Of a DNA stretch of 64,000 nucleotides, positions 17,769-45,535 are shown in pieces. Numbering within the stretch: position 1 is the first letter of the stretch; every line of letters begins with the position of its first letter. Under the pieces are notes generated by a model. The model saw nothing but the letters and a program-made list of their open reading frames with translations. It was not told the DNA's origin and ran no database searches. Source of the DNA: a virus; the IMG/VR virus record IMGVR_UViG_3300021961_000033, positions 1 to 64,000 of that record. The stretch is one strand, 5' to 3'. The position numbers were made by a program, and so were the translations under genes.

Positions 17769-18143
17769 ATGGCAAGAATCAGCGACGAAATAAAAGAAAA
17801 ATATCCGTTTTTAAGCCTTGTTAGTTATGGTGGTGATGAGTATCTAGGAATAATACAAAATTCCGATGATACTGTTTGTAGCATTTACAATTATGAAGCA
17901 CTAAAGACTGAGGACGATAGACAAGAATTTTTGGAATTAGGTGAAACCTGGTGGTGGGAAAGTAACCAAAAAATTCCTATCAACTTATTTCTAAAAGGTG
18001 ATTGGGCAAAGTTCACTTATAGTTTAATTACTCTTAATATTAAAGATGTAGAAATAATATTTGGACCAAGTGTTAACATACTAGAGATGGCCAAAAGTCG
18101 CAGTAAGCGAAAAAATATTACACTAGTTAAGCGAGTCAAGTAA
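17769..18143 (+). CDS. Conserved marine T4-like phage protein, 124 aa
   Basis: 124 aa beginning MARISDEIKEKYPFLSLVSYGGDEY, with ELGETWWWESNQKIPINLF mid-protein. I associate this sequence with conserved hypothetical proteins of marine T4-like phages; function unknown. Beta-rich with a basic C-terminus. Plus-strand gene inside a minus-strand region, convergent with the mini-DnaE gene (21-nt overlap). Confidence 0.78.
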   Translation: MARISDEIKEKYPFLSLVSYGGDEYLGIIQNSDDTVCSIYNYEALKTEDDRQEFLELGETWWWESNQKIPINLFLKGDWAKFTYSLITLNIKDVEIIFGPSVNILEMAKSRSKRKNITLVKRVK

Positions 18144-18686
18144 ATTCATGTGCACGACTACAAGATGTGCATAACTTACACTGTGTGATTTCTTAAAAAA
18201 GTATTTGTCGTTTTCAGGTCGCTGCCAGACAGTTTTGGCAATTTCCGCCCAGGGTTTGTTACGCAAGTGTGCTTTACCTGGCCGCATCACTGCTAAAAAC
18301 ATAGCCATCCTGGGTATACTGTCTGGCTTCATTTGTTTAATTAAATCATAATGATTACCAATGTGTACAATTTGTTCACAAAACTCCCTATCTTCCCAGA
18401 GTCTATTCCACCGAGGTTCTGTAGTCATTAATTCTACTAAATGTACTTCGTCTCTTACCTGATCATATACGCTTACATTGAGCAAATCTAATTTAAAGTA
18501 ACCCAGTTGTTCCGCTTGCTTGTGATCAAAGGTACTCATACCATCACCTGCACTGGGTATGTCAGTAAAGTATACACCAGTGTTATGCTGCCTGCCAGTC
18601 TCTAATCTTGCAGGTGTATGCTCTATAAACTTTAAAATATCAGATCTATTTTTAAAGTCTATATCAATATCAGGCAAGTCAATCAT
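18123..18686 (-). CDS. Mini DnaE-like palm protein
   Basis: 187 aa. Shows an abbreviated DnaE order: LPDIDIDF (4-11), HNTGVYFTD (34-42, like HAAGV), GYFKLDLLNVSVYD (62-75, third Asp D67), MAMFLAVMRPG (127-137, like ALxRPG) and FFKKSHSVSYAHLV (163-176, like FNKSHAxAY). Fingers, PHP and OB parts are missing. All three catalytic Asp are present. It could be a degenerate polymerase, a regulator, or half of a split enzyme with the 572-aa relative. Overlaps its upstream gene by 4 nt. Confidence 0.75.
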   Translation of the reverse strand: MIDLPDIDIDFKNRSDILKFIEHTPARLETGRQHNTGVYFTDIPSAGDGMSTFDHKQAEQLGYFKLDLLNVSVYDQVRDEVHLVELMTTEPRWNRLWEDREFCEQIVHIGNHYDLIKQMKPDSIPRMAMFLAVMRPGKAHLRNKPWAEIAKTVWQRPENDKYFFKKSHSVSYAHLVVVHMNLLDSLN

Positions 18687-22670: not shown

Positions 22671-23293
22671 CAATCTACCCTTTCATTTAATTTTGTTTTT
22701 ATATAATTGTCTAAATAATGCTTTAAAATTGTATATGACTCTGGCGCATAATGCCTAATACAAGGTTCCAAATTAGCGTCATTATCAAAACTCTCACCGC
22801 CATTGTCATACATATATTGATTGCCGCAAAACTCAAACAGTGGAACAATCCTTGGATTTTCCTGTATCCATTTAAGTTTTTCAAATGCTTTAAATCCGGT
22901 AATATGCACATTTTCAAACTTATTACACTGATCCCAGATCAAATATTTTATACCTTGTTGATCCAACCAACTAGCAAACATTATAATATTCATAAAAAGA
23001 TAGTCCCAGGATCTATAACAACTATCAGATAGTTGACCCTCTATTTTATAATGTTCAAACGGAGCAAGATCATATGCTCCTTCTATAGGTTGATCAACTA
23101 CTACTTTGCTTACTTCAAATCTAGTGCAAACTGTAATAGGTATAAAAACATAGACGGGTTTTCCGTTTACTGCTATCCATTCCATAGTAGTTCTTATACT
23201 TCTATAAAAACTGCCACCACCCCTACTAAGATTTACACCTGGGAAATCCTTCCATGCCGCGCCATAACTACACCCATTTAAAAATAAAGTCAT
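22667..23293 (-). CDS. SGNH-like protein
   Basis: 208 aa. Starts LFLNGCSYGAAWKDFPG (block I, Ser in GCS), LSRGGGSFYRSI (block II) and YVFIPITVCTRFE mid-protein. C-terminal catalytic His not evident to me. Probably a divergent or inactive SGNH family member. Overlaps UvsW stop by 4 nt. Confidence 0.65.
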   Translation of the reverse strand: MTLFLNGCSYGAAWKDFPGVNLSRGGGSFYRSIRTTMEWIAVNGKPVYVFIPITVCTRFEVSKVVVDQPIEGAYDLAPFEHYKIEGQLSDSCYRSWDYLFMNIIMFASWLDQQGIKYLIWDQCNKFENVHITGFKAFEKLKWIQENPRIVPLFEFCGNQYMYDNGGESFDNDANLEPCIRHYAPESYTILKHYLDNYIKTKLNERVDW

Positions 23294-24747
23294 TTCCAGT
23301 CTACTTTCTGTACGTTAAATGGGTATTTTGCTTCAGTATAAAATGCTTTTCTTTTTGTTAGATGTCGTTTTGCAAATCTACAAGTACTTGTAATGTCCCA
23401 GATTTGAACAAAGTCCTTGTCTTCTGCTTTACGAATACCTCGCCCTATAGATTGTATAACTCTAACGAAGCTCTTACCAGGCTCCAAAAGTACGAGATTG
23501 AAAATGCGAGGGATATTAATACCCACAGCGGCAACACCATAAGTGGCCACAATAACCTTATCGCTAGAATCTGCGACTTCGTCATATTCTTGTTTACGAG
23601 CTTGTGCCTTCGTGCCACCGCTGACAAAAACGGCGCCCGGAATCCTCTGGGTAATTTTTGTTCCTGCATTTATCCTATCCACTAATACTAGGGTATTCCC
23701 TGTAAGTCTAATTTGTTCAATTACACCAGCAATGTAATCTATTCTATCTTCCTGCTCTAGTAGGTATTTTAGTTCACTCTGATAGTTTGTGTACTCTTTT
23801 AAGTCTATTAATTGTAACACATTCACTTCGCAATTTGCAAGTACTCCTTTTTCCTGTAAATCAGCAGCACTAATGTGATTAATAACTGGACCTAAACTGC
23901 ACACCAAACTGATCTTTTCAAAGTCTTCCTTGGGTACTGTTCCAGTTAATCCCCAGCGTATGGGTATCTGGCTCATTACGCCAGTGAGTAATGTCTTTAG
24001 TGCATCTGCTTTAGCCATATGCACCTCATCTACCATGATGCACACGACGCCCTCTAGAAACTCTTGTATAGTTATAGGAGCAACCTGGTTCTTTGTATTC
24101 TTAAGAAGTATGTTTAGGCTTTGCCAGGTACAGATGGTATGTGTATGCCCAAACTCTTTACGGTCTCCATAAAACACGCCCACATCTAACCCCATGTTGA
24201 TGTAGTCTGCTTCTGTTTGTGTCACCAAACTCTTGTTGGGCACAATAACAATAGTGCGTCCATGTGCTTCGCATCTGTGACTTAGCACTGCGGTTATAAG
24301 TGTTTTGCCAGCACCAGTTGCTACTTCTTGTAGGCTTTGTGGGTTAGTTAAAAAGTTATTAATAACTTCTACTTGATAGTCTCTGAGTATGATTGGCTGC
24401 CCTGCTGCTGGATGCTTGTCAGGCCATACTTTGTCAGCATAACTATTCTCATCCACTGGCTCCAGCGGATAATCCATCTGATAGTCTCTGACGTCATTAA
24501 GTGTAACATCATAACCGTCACTGCTAAGGATGGGAAGTATCTCAGGCAGCAAGTTAATATAGGTACTGCCGCCTAACTGGAAGAAAGCCATCTTGCCGTC
24601 CCAGCGTCCAAGTCTTACTGCTGGCATGTAACGAGCACCAGGTATCTCATACTTAAATTTATTACTCAACTTGCGGCGAGTATCCAAATCTAAGCCTTCT
24701 ATCTTAACATTAACTTCGTCTTTAACGTGTAATACGCAAGGCTTCAA
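23290..24747 (-). CDS. uvsW: DNA/RNA helicase UvsW
   Basis: 485 aa from a TTG with GGAGAAG about 7 nt upstream. Superfamily 2 helicase: TGAGKT (144-149, Walker A), DEVH (240-243, motif II), LTGT (268-271, motif III), QSIGRGIR (432-439, motif VI). Length near T4 UvsW (503 aa). It unwinds branched DNA and R-loops during recombination-dependent replication. Start overlaps the upstream SGNH-like gene by 26 nt. Confidence 0.92.
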   Translation of the reverse strand: MKPCVLHVKDEVNVKIEGLDLDTRRKLSNKFKYEIPGARYMPAVRLGRWDGKMAFFQLGGSTYINLLPEILPILSSDGYDVTLNDVRDYQMDYPLEPVDENSYADKVWPDKHPAAGQPIILRDYQVEVINNFLTNPQSLQEVATGAGKTLITAVLSHRCEAHGRTIVIVPNKSLVTQTEADYINMGLDVGVFYGDRKEFGHTHTICTWQSLNILLKNTKNQVAPITIQEFLEGVVCIMVDEVHMAKADALKTLLTGVMSQIPIRWGLTGTVPKEDFEKISLVCSLGPVINHISAADLQEKGVLANCEVNVLQLIDLKEYTNYQSELKYLLEQEDRIDYIAGVIEQIRLTGNTLVLVDRINAGTKITQRIPGAVFVSGGTKAQARKQEYDEVADSSDKVIVATYGVAAVGINIPRIFNLVLLEPGKSFVRVIQSIGRGIRKAEDKDFVQIWDITSTCRFAKRHLTKRKAFYTEAKYPFNVQKVDWK

Positions 24748-29732: not shown

Positions 29733-30497
29733 ATGAAAATAGTTTTAGCAACTGGTGGATTCGATCCCATACATTCTGGCCATATTAGTTATTTTAAAGC
29801 GGCAAGACAGTTAGGCGATCGCCTAATTATAGGTGTTAACAGTGACGCATGGTTAGCAAGAAAAAAAGGCAGAAGTTTTATGCCCTGGCAAGAGCGTTCC
29901 ACCATTGTTGAAAGTTTAAGTGTGGTTGACGAAATTGTTGCCTTTCCTGACGATGATAACTCAGCTATTGGGGCAATACAGCGTGTAAAGGATAAATACC
30001 CTGACGCACAAATTGTATTTGTTAACGGTGGTGATAGGACTGCTGACAACATCCCAGAAATGGTGTTCGATGATGTTGAGTTTGTATTTGGTGTAGGCGG
30101 CGAGAATAAAGCAAATAGTTCAAGTTGGATTTTAGAAGAGTGGAAAGCTCCTAAAACCCAGAGACAATGGGGATATTATCGAGTAGTGCACGAGTATGGC
30201 AGTCATACAAAGTTGAAAGAACTGGCAGTAGATCCAGGCAGCAAACTATCAATGCAAAAGCACCAAGAGCGATCTGAACACTGGTTTGTAGCAGAAGGTA
30301 CTGCTACAGTTTATACAATTAATACAAGTAGTGATTACGAACTGTTTGGAGTTTATAATAAACACCAAAACCTTCATATACCTGTTGGCATGTGGCATCA
30401 GCTCGCCAATGAAACAGATAAACCTCTTAAGCTGGTTGAAATACAATATGGCACCAATTGTGTTGAAGAAGATATAGAACGTTTACCATTAGAATAA
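29733..30497 (+). CDS. Cytidylyltransferase-cupin fusion
   Basis: 254 aa. Residues 1-140: nucleotidyltransferase with GGFDPIHSGH (8-17, HxGH motif), LIIGVNSD and VNGGDRT (103-109 region), as in RfaE/TagD-type enzymes that activate sugar phosphates. Residues 150-245: a cupin (VDPGSKLSMQKHQERSEHWFV, VPVGMWHQL region) like mannose-6-phosphate isomerase type II C-domains. It probably makes an activated sugar for the glycosyltransferases around it; the substrate is unknown. Sigma70-type promoter upstream. Confidence 0.82.
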   Translation: MKIVLATGGFDPIHSGHISYFKAARQLGDRLIIGVNSDAWLARKKGRSFMPWQERSTIVESLSVVDEIVAFPDDDNSAIGAIQRVKDKYPDAQIVFVNGGDRTADNIPEMVFDDVEFVFGVGGENKANSSSWILEEWKAPKTQRQWGYYRVVHEYGSHTKLKELAVDPGSKLSMQKHQERSEHWFVAEGTATVYTINTSSDYELFGVYNKHQNLHIPVGMWHQLANETDKPLKLVEIQYGTNCVEEDIERLPLE

Positions 30498-37567: not shown

Positions 37568-38371
37568 TTAATAAGCCGCACTAGTATGATTGCCCTGTCT
37601 AGTGTCTATGTTAGCATCACTATATTCTGATCTTAATTCAGCGACAACATCATTAACATATCGACCCTGCATAGGAATCTGGAAAGGTTGATCCTTAAGT
37701 TTCCTATATGCTGCTACTAAACTTATATTTTGTGCTCGGCTATCACGCTGATGTAGTTCATCATATGCTCGTTCCAAATCGCTTACAGGGGCTCTTGGTT
37801 TCTTTTGTTCAAAGTTTGCCCAGCCATCCATTGTGGTGGGCATTTCTATATAGCGTCCTGTGTTTTGTGCTAACCATAAAAACTGCCATTCATATCCATT
37901 AGCCGCTGCTATATCTCTAAATAAAGCAGGATGATAATTATAAAAGCCATGATTAATCCAAGGAGCAAAGGGCAGTACACATAACATTACTCCGCCAACC
38001 CTGCATAGATTGTGCATGTTTTCAAACACTGTACGCTGATCAAATATATGCTCTCCTGTACCATTATTGGTCACTAGATCAAATTGTTTAATGTAATTGT
38101 ATTTGTCCCGGAGAATAAAGTTTAAGTCCATGGCTACACTTCGCAACTCTGTGTTAATGTCTATAGCCAAATACTCTGGGAAGCCAATGTCTTCAAAGTA
38201 TTCCCAAACATAATTTACAGGCTTGCGTATAGGTTTACCTGCCCGCTCACTGCACTGTTGCACCCAACTCTCTGTGTAACGGAAACGTTGGTTACCCCAC
38301 TCTACTACAGTGCCTGATGTTGTTTTGCTTATCTCAGCACAGGCTAACTGCATAATATTGTTGAATGCCAT
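37568..38371 (-). CDS. Methyltransferase-like protein
   Basis: 267 aa. VVEWGNQ (22-28) in the position of the SAM loop, YLAIDINTEL with an acidic Asp, FDLVTNNGTGEHIFDQ, then LCRVGGVMLCVLPF (post-motif). Resembles class I methyltransferases, with a weakened glycine loop. C-terminal 60 residues are unassigned. TAATG junction with the fusion gene upstream. Confidence 0.68.
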   Translation of the reverse strand: MAFNNIMQLACAEISKTTSGTVVEWGNQRFRYTESWVQQCSERAGKPIRKPVNYVWEYFEDIGFPEYLAIDINTELRSVAMDLNFILRDKYNYIKQFDLVTNNGTGEHIFDQRTVFENMHNLCRVGGVMLCVLPFAPWINHGFYNYHPALFRDIAAANGYEWQFLWLAQNTGRYIEMPTTMDGWANFEQKKPRAPVSDLERAYDELHQRDSRAQNISLVAAYRKLKDQPFQIPMQGRYVNDVVAELRSEYSDANIDTRQGNHTSAAY

Positions 38372-39603
38372 TATACTTTCCTAAAGTGATAGTATTCTCG
38401 CTGTCCACTTGGACGAGCCTGTCCATGTGCTTCCTGTGTAAACTTTGTTTTAAATGCTGCTAGCATCTTGTTTGTGTGATCTATATTGTTTGGGCGGTTT
38501 TCAAGTTTTTGTGTCTCGTGTACAACAACACCACCAGGCGCTAACAAGTCGTAATAAGCATCAACTATCTCTTGTTCTGTTAATCCGCCAAAGTCACGCA
38601 ATTGAATACTCACTGCTAAACTTAATACAATATCATAGTAGTCAGTTGCTTTGAACTTCATATAGTCATTGAATGTGCCTGTGTACCATTTTACATTGGC
38701 TGGCTTTTTATCATCACGTAACTTTACAAAAGGTTCTACGCCTGTTGCTTTTGCTACATGTGGTGCCATAAGTTTGGTAATGAATCCATCATTGCATCCA
38801 ATATCAATCAATTGTGCATTTCCGTTCCATTGTTGTGCTAGTTCAACAAGTTTCATACGTTGGACTCTATCTTCTGCATCAGCAATGCCATAACGCTTTT
38901 GATATTTGTTCCATTCTTTGACTACTTTTTCTGGTGGTTGTGTAAACATTGTCATATTATCCCATATTTCTCTTGGATTACCTTTGCGTAACTCATCAAA
39001 CTTAGACTTGTCAGATAGTTTAGCCATTAGCTCACTTTCCCAACTTTGTCTTGGATCATCTAGACAAATGTGTAGTGCTTGTCTAAACTCATCCTTGTTG
39101 TAAAAACTGTATAGATATCCTAACCTATCACTTAATCTTTCGTGTGCTAGACTGTTTATTGGACACGACATCTCAAAGTCTATTAAACTTATTTCGCCAT
39201 CCTGTATACAAAAGTTACTTAGCGGAAACTTTGCGAAGTCTTTTGATTTACTTGCTGGATCCATTCCTGGATAGAAATACATTATGTTAGCATGTTCTAG
39301 TTCATTTGCAATACAATCAATTTGATCATGATACTTGGTTAAATTGTGTTCATGCCATGTGTGAAATAAACTTTCGCCAACTAATGTCATTGCTAAACTA
39401 TGATCAGTTTTGTCTGCACCTATCATGTTAGGAAAATGTAGTTTTCCTTGTAGTCTTTGCAAACAAGTTGTTTCTCGTAACCAACAATCATATATGCTAC
39501 CGCGGGCAGGCTTAACACTTTTTTTATTTCTAGTACTGTAACTTTTTACAACATGCTCTCCTGTCATAAAACACCAGCTAGCTTTGCCCATAGTATACTG
39601 CAT
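38371..39603 (-). CDS. Kinase-like/methyltransferase fusion
   Basis: 410 aa. Residues 1-170: kinase-like fold, with GKASWCFMTGEHVVKSYS, ETTCLQRLQG, MTLVGESLF and FCIQDGEISLIDFEMSC (acidic DFE-like site). Residues 240-410: class I SAM methyltransferase with LIDIGCNDGFITKLMAP (about 261-277), GVEPF, DIVLSLAVSIQLRD and LLAPGGVVVHETQ. A two-domain fusion fits phospho-plus-methyl capping of a growing glycan, as in O-antigen chain terminators; this is inference. Confidence 0.72.
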   Translation of the reverse strand: MQYTMGKASWCFMTGEHVVKSYSTRNKKSVKPARGSIYDCWLRETTCLQRLQGKLHFPNMIGADKTDHSLAMTLVGESLFHTWHEHNLTKYHDQIDCIANELEHANIMYFYPGMDPASKSKDFAKFPLSNFCIQDGEISLIDFEMSCPINSLAHERLSDRLGYLYSFYNKDEFRQALHICLDDPRQSWESELMAKLSDKSKFDELRKGNPREIWDNMTMFTQPPEKVVKEWNKYQKRYGIADAEDRVQRMKLVELAQQWNGNAQLIDIGCNDGFITKLMAPHVAKATGVEPFVKLRDDKKPANVKWYTGTFNDYMKFKATDYYDIVLSLAVSIQLRDFGGLTEQEIVDAYYDLLAPGGVVVHETQKLENRPNNIDHTNKMLAAFKTKFTQEAHGQARPSGQREYYHFRKV

Positions 39604-44590: not shown

Positions 44591-45535
44591 TTAGTGTGTA
44601 TTACGAATGTTGGCAACAAATCCGGGTGTGAAGAATTCATCAACAACATCATATACTGACTGTGTTAGAGCTTTAAGATTTGTTCTATCTACATCTGTCA
44701 TGCTGGAGATTGTAATACCATTTTTATCACAATCTTGTTCAAACTTTTCACAATCTTCAATAGACCATTTACGTTCTATTGCTGCTGCATTAGCAGCCGC
44801 AACTTTAAATAGCTCTTGAGTTGTTTCATCAAGTTCGTTCCAAAACTTTTTACTGACTGCAATAGTAGTCATAAACATACTATGCTGAGTTTTAAGCACA
44901 TGAGTACCTTTGAAACGCAAATAAGTTGTTTCTGCTGCATCAAGAGAACCCTGTTCAATTTCATCATAGCCATAGCCTAATTCATTATGAGTTTTAGGCT
45001 GTGCGCCAATGTTTTGCATTGTCATAAAGTTTACTGGATTACCATTTACACGCACAGTTGAATCCTGTAAATCATTTAATGAAACAATTGGCTTATTTGA
45101 ACCGATAACACGATACCCGCCACTGTATGTAAATGCGAGACCACGTAATCCTGAACGTTCTGCTAAACTATCACATAGTATTTTACCAATCGGCCCATCA
45201 ACAACTGAGCTTACATGATCATGATCACGGAATAAGAATGGCAAATCTAAAGCATAAAAATCTTTGTTAATTTTGCCAAATGCTGAAACTACTGTTTGGC
45301 TCATTGATATGCGATTATCATCTAATGCATCAAAAATTGACTCATAAGTTCCGCCAGCATCACGCACTGCTTCATCATTGTATTTTTCTACATATTCTGG
45401 TACAGTTAATACTTCAATTTTTAATGCACCTTTTGTAGTTTCTTCGATTTCTGCTGCAAATGCTTCAGCAGTTCTTAGAAACAAATGAATAGGTTCGTGT
45501 GCAATTACCCATTTTACTATTTTTTGAGTTGTCAT
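44591..45535 (-). CDS. TRAP-type solute-binding protein (DctP-like), no signal peptide
   Basis: 314 aa. WVIAHEPIHLFLRTAEAFA opens directly at the first strand, GGYRVIGSNKPI carries Arg142 and LQDSTVRVNGNPVNFM Arg162, the carboxylate-binding pair of the DctP family (PF03480). Then LRFKGTHVLKTQHSMF and ELFKVAAANAAAIE. Bacterial homologs carry a signal peptide and work in the periplasm with TRAP permease; here no signal and no permease genes are seen, so a cytoplasmic or virion role is likely. Late-type box and SD upstream. Confidence 0.88.
   Translation of the reverse strand: MTTQKIVKWVIAHEPIHLFLRTAEAFAAEIEETTKGALKIEVLTVPEYVEKYNDEAVRDAGGTYESIFDALDDNRISMSQTVVSAFGKINKDFYALDLPFLFRDHDHVSSVVDGPIGKILCDSLAERSGLRGLAFTYSGGYRVIGSNKPIVSLNDLQDSTVRVNGNPVNFMTMQNIGAQPKTHNELGYGYDEIEQGSLDAAETTYLRFKGTHVLKTQHSMFMTTIAVSKKFWNELDETTQELFKVAAANAAAIERKWSIEDCEKFEQDCDKNGITISSMTDVDRTNLKALTQSVYDVVDEFFTPGFVANIRNTH

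Follow-up and report, generated by a model that had tools for sequence, protein, structure and literature searches.

A small gene in the window (the whole 64,000-nucleotide stretch analysed here, which belongs to a 117-kb virus record) almost certainly codes for one half, the C-terminal one, of a split minimal DNA polymerase III alpha. The first palm segment of DnaE, which contains the GRGS motif (E. coli residues 361-364), is absent from the 187-aa product and is found in these phages as a separate protein of ~175 aa (PHROG 11127), with which the 187-aa protein probably acts by reconstitution. The relevant features of the window are listed in Table 1.

Table 1. Replication genes and DnaE motifs discussed in the text (positions in the window; equivalences refer to E. 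coli DnaE)
Feature	Position	Strand	Basis or remark
572-aa single-chain, PHP-less DnaE relative (P0002)	9765..11483	+	Pfam DNA_pol3_alpha 1e-42, finger 1.5e-14
DnaB/gp41-like replicative helicase	12594..13991	-	PHROG 19, E=1e-72; conserved neighbour
DNA primase	14817..15776	-	PHROG 47, E=1e-31; conserved neighbour
124-aa gene, convergent (PHROG 11637)	17769..18143	+	Overlaps 3' end of the C-half gene
Almost certain C-terminal half of split minimal DNA polymerase III alpha, 187 aa (P0001)	18123..18686	-	PHROG 11778; AlphaFold2 model; alignment to DnaE 399-780
KKSHSVSYA, residues 165-173	18168..18194	-	H168 = H760, steric gate; Y172 = Y764, O helix of fingers
RPG, residues 135-137	18276..18284	-	= 639-641, fingers core
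KLD, residues 65-67	18486..18494	-	K65, D67 = K553, D555; third catalytic Asp
PDIDIDF, residues 5-11	18654..18674	-	D6, D8, D10 = D401, D403, D405; metal ligands D401/D403
UvsW-like helicase	23290..24747	-	PHROG 16, E=2e-74; same replication/recombination cluster

The open reading frame begins with ATG, and the best family for its product in a PHROGs search is PHROG 11778 (annotated 'DNA polymerase'; E=2e-54, residues 6-184), with weaker matches to other DnaE families. The Pfam match is marginal (E=0.17), a single-sequence search of PDB sequences returned chance matches only, DnaE not being found, and a profile of the C-half family detected DnaE weakly (E 0.04); recognition of the kinship needed both profile and structure searches. 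On E. coli DnaE the C-half profile aligns in four collinear blocks (399-420, 542-561, 606-641 and 739-767). The motifs of the bacterial enzyme, DFDVDF at 401, KFD at 553, RPG at 639 and KSHS at 758, have their counterparts at residues 6, 65, 135 and 166 of the protein, in the same order, so that equivalents of D401, D403, D405, K553, D555 and H760 are all in place. D401, D403 and D555 are absolutely conserved across the C family, and D405 across the DnaE groups (PMC3919608); H760, on the O helix, has been proposed to act as a steric gate that keeps out ribonucleotides (PMC8485763). Among 43 diverse C-half homologues D6, D8, D10, K65, D67, R135, P136, H168 and Y172 are invariant. The gene has a dN/dS of 0.044 against its closest relative among the IMG/VR matches listed (91% identical), a sign of purifying selection; past that relative the ratio is saturated. 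Because four collinear DnaE blocks are accompanied by the strong PHROG 11778 match and a dN/dS of ~0.04, the likeness is more than a chance resemblance of motifs.

Structural comparison led to the same assignment. The AlphaFold2 model of the 187-aa protein, built with 43 homologues, has a mean pLDDT of 91.3, and VIA-align placed the whole model on DnaE chains, with 183 residues aligned to 3e0d (Z 9.1, rmsd 3.9) and 178 to 2hnh (Z 8.8, rmsd 4.0), where it spans residues 399-780; the corresponding spans are 459-836 in Taq DnaE and 417-806 in Mtb DnaE1. Matches of lower Z were to chains titled 'DNA polymerase' (9qrn, 9qpc), and unrelated rows had Z values of 3.4 or less. Foldseek alone also ranked DnaE chains first for both the 187-aa and the N-half models, but at E values of ~3e-3 and with distorted superpositions, whereas those of VIA-align were clean and full-length. 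Sequence identity to DnaE is only ~20%.

It should be emphasized that the protein is far smaller than E. coli Pol III alpha (187 aa versus 1160 aa). Missing from it are the PHP domain, the thumb, the N-terminal palm segment and a part of the fingers, along with all that follows DnaE residue ~780 (the clamp-binding, OB and C-terminal domains); by the domain limits generally given for DnaE, the spacing of the motifs indicates loss of the thumb as well as of a part of the fingers. A palm-thumb-fingers core in one chain is thus incomplete here, and, judged from its sequence, the 187-aa protein alone is not a DnaE polymerase. The sequence-only reading had proposed a second, reduced DnaE with the motif blocks in order and an intact catalytic Asp, beside a 572-aa relative in the same genome, and all of this holds, as does its view that the small protein lacks a complete polymerase core; the alignments, which place the two proteins on DnaE 399-780 and 315-787, respectively, gave no sign of a non-DnaE fold. 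Its statement that fingers and OB had been deleted was correct for the OB domain and went too far for the fingers, of which RPG, KSHS and the O-helix histidine remain.

The missing palm segment is what PHROG 11127 appears to provide. A profile of this N-half family aligns to E. coli DnaE 319-393 and finds DnaE among PDB sequences (6e-4). The N-half model (pLDDT 91.4) superposes on E. coli DnaE 278-393 (Z 9.7-10.8, 94 residues, rmsd 2.4-2.6), Taq DnaE 295-455 and Mtb DnaE1 306-413. The two halves therefore tile DnaE as adjacent, non-overlapping pieces, with the break between residues ~393 and 399. The G-GRGS motif is invariant in 42 N-halves, and the best 80 of the at least 555 N-half stretches in IMG/VR are all standalone open reading frames that end 35-44 residues after the start of GRGS; the C-halves start no more than a few tens of residues from the DxD motif. 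In the N-half (L161:800-1324 and other PHROG 11127 loci) the first ~78 residues are mostly confidently folded and lie outside all DnaE alignments, and in the models they form an extra N-terminal part.

The occurrence of the two genes together argues for a common function. Sixty-five phage records matched the 187-aa protein by tblastn, 61 of them over at least 80% of the query, and those listed are almost all RaK2-like jumbo phages and relatives (RaK2, 121Q, PBECO4, GAP32, CBB, PA5oct, Paride, Atu_ph07, Phosso, SCTP-2 and XacN1), in which the gene is mostly annotated 'hypothetical protein' or 'DNA polymerase'. The N-half was present in all ten cultured C-half phages checked (RaK2, Paride, Phosso, Atu_ph07, SCTP-2, Vibrio phage 2.275, XacN1, CM1, CBB and PBECO4). 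Both halves also occurred in eight of the ten metagenomic C-half contigs of at least 200 kb (G017, G031, G032, G033, G035, G036, G037 and G041), the N-half not being found in G001 (204 kb) or G002 (210 kb). When the 117-kb record of the window was searched with an enriched profile, no N-half was detected other than the palm contained in the 572-aa protein. The halves are mostly far apart, however (~34 kb separate them in RaK2, for instance, and 237 kb do so in G041), and absence of the N-half from a fragment is thus weak evidence; the 117-kb record, G001 and G002 are probably fragments of larger genomes. Contigs that hold only the N-half are all 191 kb or shorter. The split enzyme is abundant: in IMG/VR at least 476 C-half and at least 555 N-half stretches were confirmed, some of which may be full DnaEs, as the best 80 were kept for each half and the check that every locus is standalone covers the 80 N-half loci.

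The arrangement has been described before. Iyer et al. (2021; PMC7824862) reported that group 2.2 (RaK2-like) jumbo phages, comprising Atu_ph07 and gammaproteobacterial jumbo phages, have a phage-specific split minimal DNA polymerase III alpha, for which two distantly located genes encode an N-terminal NTP-binding and a C-terminal Mg- and template-binding unit alongside a family-B polymerase; a single truncated piece, the 172-aa CBB_328, had been noticed in an earlier genome paper (PMC5259590). We equate these units with PHROG 11127 and PHROG 11778 from the description in that paper and from the phage group. The 187-aa protein resembles the C-terminal unit in being standalone, in carrying the DxD, the third Asp and the template-binding part, and in belonging to the same phage group. 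In contrast with that description, the lineage of the window adds a third, single-chain DnaE relative of 572 aa nearby, and no N-terminal unit was found in the 117-kb record. A search of the open-access literature for biochemical work on the split enzyme found none, and a bench test of the arrangement has apparently never been reported. The 187-aa protein shares about 31-48% identity with PHROG 11778 members of cultured phages (RaK2 ORF124, CBB gp287, Paride_0017 and Phosso 437) and falls in a marine clade whose IMG/VR members are closer to it, up to 91% identical among the matches listed.

Gene order is conserved along with the protein. The four cultured members just named share the gene order, including the convergent small gene, the primase and the helicase, and in cultured relatives the C-half gene lies in a replication/recombination cluster with primase and gp41-like helicase, often together with UvsW, UvsX and a DnaQ-like exonuclease. 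A homologue of the convergent PHROG 11637 gene lies immediately downstream in 114 of the 132 C-half loci with enough flank, a count of loci rather than of independent events, many of them being mutually related; the two genes may be linked functionally or in their regulation. Beyond this place in a replication cluster we found no support for the suggestion that the 187-aa protein binds the clamp or the primase. Elsewhere the window encodes a family 7 extracellular solute-binding protein (44591-45535, minus strand; Pfam DctP, TRAP-transporter type, E=9e-41), an unusual phage cargo. In a 254-aa product (29733-30497, plus strand) a cytidylyltransferase-like domain precedes a mannose-6-phosphate isomerase C-terminal (cupin) domain; with the methyltransferase-like genes at 37568-39603, this product suggests a sugar or glycan module.

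How the split enzyme might work can be read from the parts that each half contributes. The N-half would bring the initial segment of the palm, in which the nucleotide-binding GRGS motif lies, and the C-half would bring the strands bearing DxD and the third Asp, together with the steric-gate helix and a reduced core of the fingers. As the break falls midway through the nucleotidyltransferase fold, an active site would form only by assembly in trans, the two proteins binding to each other and building the site at their interface. The assembled halves would then extend primers by template-directed incorporation of dNTPs. Loss of the thumb and of the clamp-binding and OB regions is expected to make processivity low, and because a family-B replicase is present the role is probably accessory; that it is specifically the role of an accessory DNA polymerase, filling gaps, repairing DNA or bypassing lesions beside the replicase, we regard as an even prospect. 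The family-B enzyme was detected in G017 and in nearly all large related genomes; no DNA_pol_B was found in the 117-kb record of the window.

It could be argued that the enzyme formed by the two halves is active in nucleotidyl transfer without being a template-directed DNA polymerase, and that it makes primers, for example, or tails ends or repairs them. The severe reduction of the DNA-gripping parts fits such an activity, as does the fact that the role of replicase is already filled by the family-B polymerase. The enzyme has, however, kept the steric-gate histidine, RPG and KSHS, with H168, R135 and P136 invariant, which points to selection of dNTPs and to a polymerase-like closed complex, and we therefore consider this alternative unlikely, though the most credible of the rivals.

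Two further alternatives turn on the 572-aa protein. This aligns with E. coli DnaE 315-787, carries a DxD and a third Asp of its own, and extends for ~150 aa at its C terminus past the DnaE match. The conserved family to which it belongs numbers 53 loci in IMG/VR, and a homologue is found in the 484-kb phage LR756508, where the PHROG 11127 and PHROG 11778 profiles match this protein alone. Both proteins have the DnaE palm and fingers without a PHP domain and, unlike the split halves, combine GS, DxD and third Asp in one chain; the 572-aa protein is predicted to be a separate, PHP-less single-chain DnaE. Could it be the partner of the 187-aa protein, as the sequence-only reading had entertained, and provide the N-terminal palm that the small protein lacks? 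The two genes lie within ~7 kb of each other in the window, both occur in 9 of the 16 572-aa contigs examined (including that of the window), and the 117-kb record has no N-half. Against such a partnership, contig G017 contains both halves, the N-half as a standalone protein, together with a 572-aa homologue and a family-B polymerase, and the 572-aa protein owns a complete Asp set. Moreover, the 572-aa gene was not found in any of the three cultured split-enzyme phages searched, a weak match in Paride being the N-half itself. The partnership is thus quite improbable, and the standalone N-half is by far the better candidate partner.

It had also been suggested that duplication followed by loss gave rise to the small protein, and that it might be a decoy; on this reading it would be a decoy or regulator derived from the 572-aa polymerase, its catalytic residues being irrelevant. 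The two genes do share a genome and are both DnaE-derived. In a tree of the concatenated halves, the 572-aa family and full DnaEs, however, the split and 572-aa families formed separate deep clades on long stems (one stem of 2.3 substitutions per site, with weak deep support), and the C-half occurs in cultured phages that lack the 572-aa gene. On this phylogeny a recent duplication linking the two proteins is excluded. A constrained tree joining the two families was not rejected (AU p=0.45), and an ancient common origin would be compatible with that test. A decoy is unlikely given that the equivalents of the three catalytic Asp, K553 and H760 are invariant in the 43 homologues, and the combination of duplication and catalytic irrelevance is more doubtful still. 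Joining of the halves after translation by a split intein, for which cyanobacterial DnaE, also encoded by two genes, is the precedent (cited in PMC3919608), can be dismissed with near certainty, as there is no intein sequence at the break and, with N-halves stopping 35-44 residues past the GRGS start and C-halves starting near DxD, no room for one.

Assembly of a C-family enzyme from the 187-aa protein and its N-half would bear on how these phages are surveyed and on how they may replicate. A survey of marine jumbo phages found that, of the genes unique to cluster PGC_A, PF07733 (Pol III alpha) alone occurs in more than half of the phages (PMC9123017). This domain model detects the N-half, so the PF07733 signal may partly be that of the split enzyme, and the PGC_A marker may often be the split enzyme. 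At slightly less than even odds, phages like that of the window would combine a family-B replicase and a single-chain PHP-less DnaE with a third DNA polymerase system, a C-family enzyme assembled in trans from widely separated genes and gated by its assembly. If active, the split enzyme would have a very small C-family polymerase core, and it is unusual for a polymerase to be broken within its catalytic fold and yet be conserved across hundreds of giant-phage contigs.
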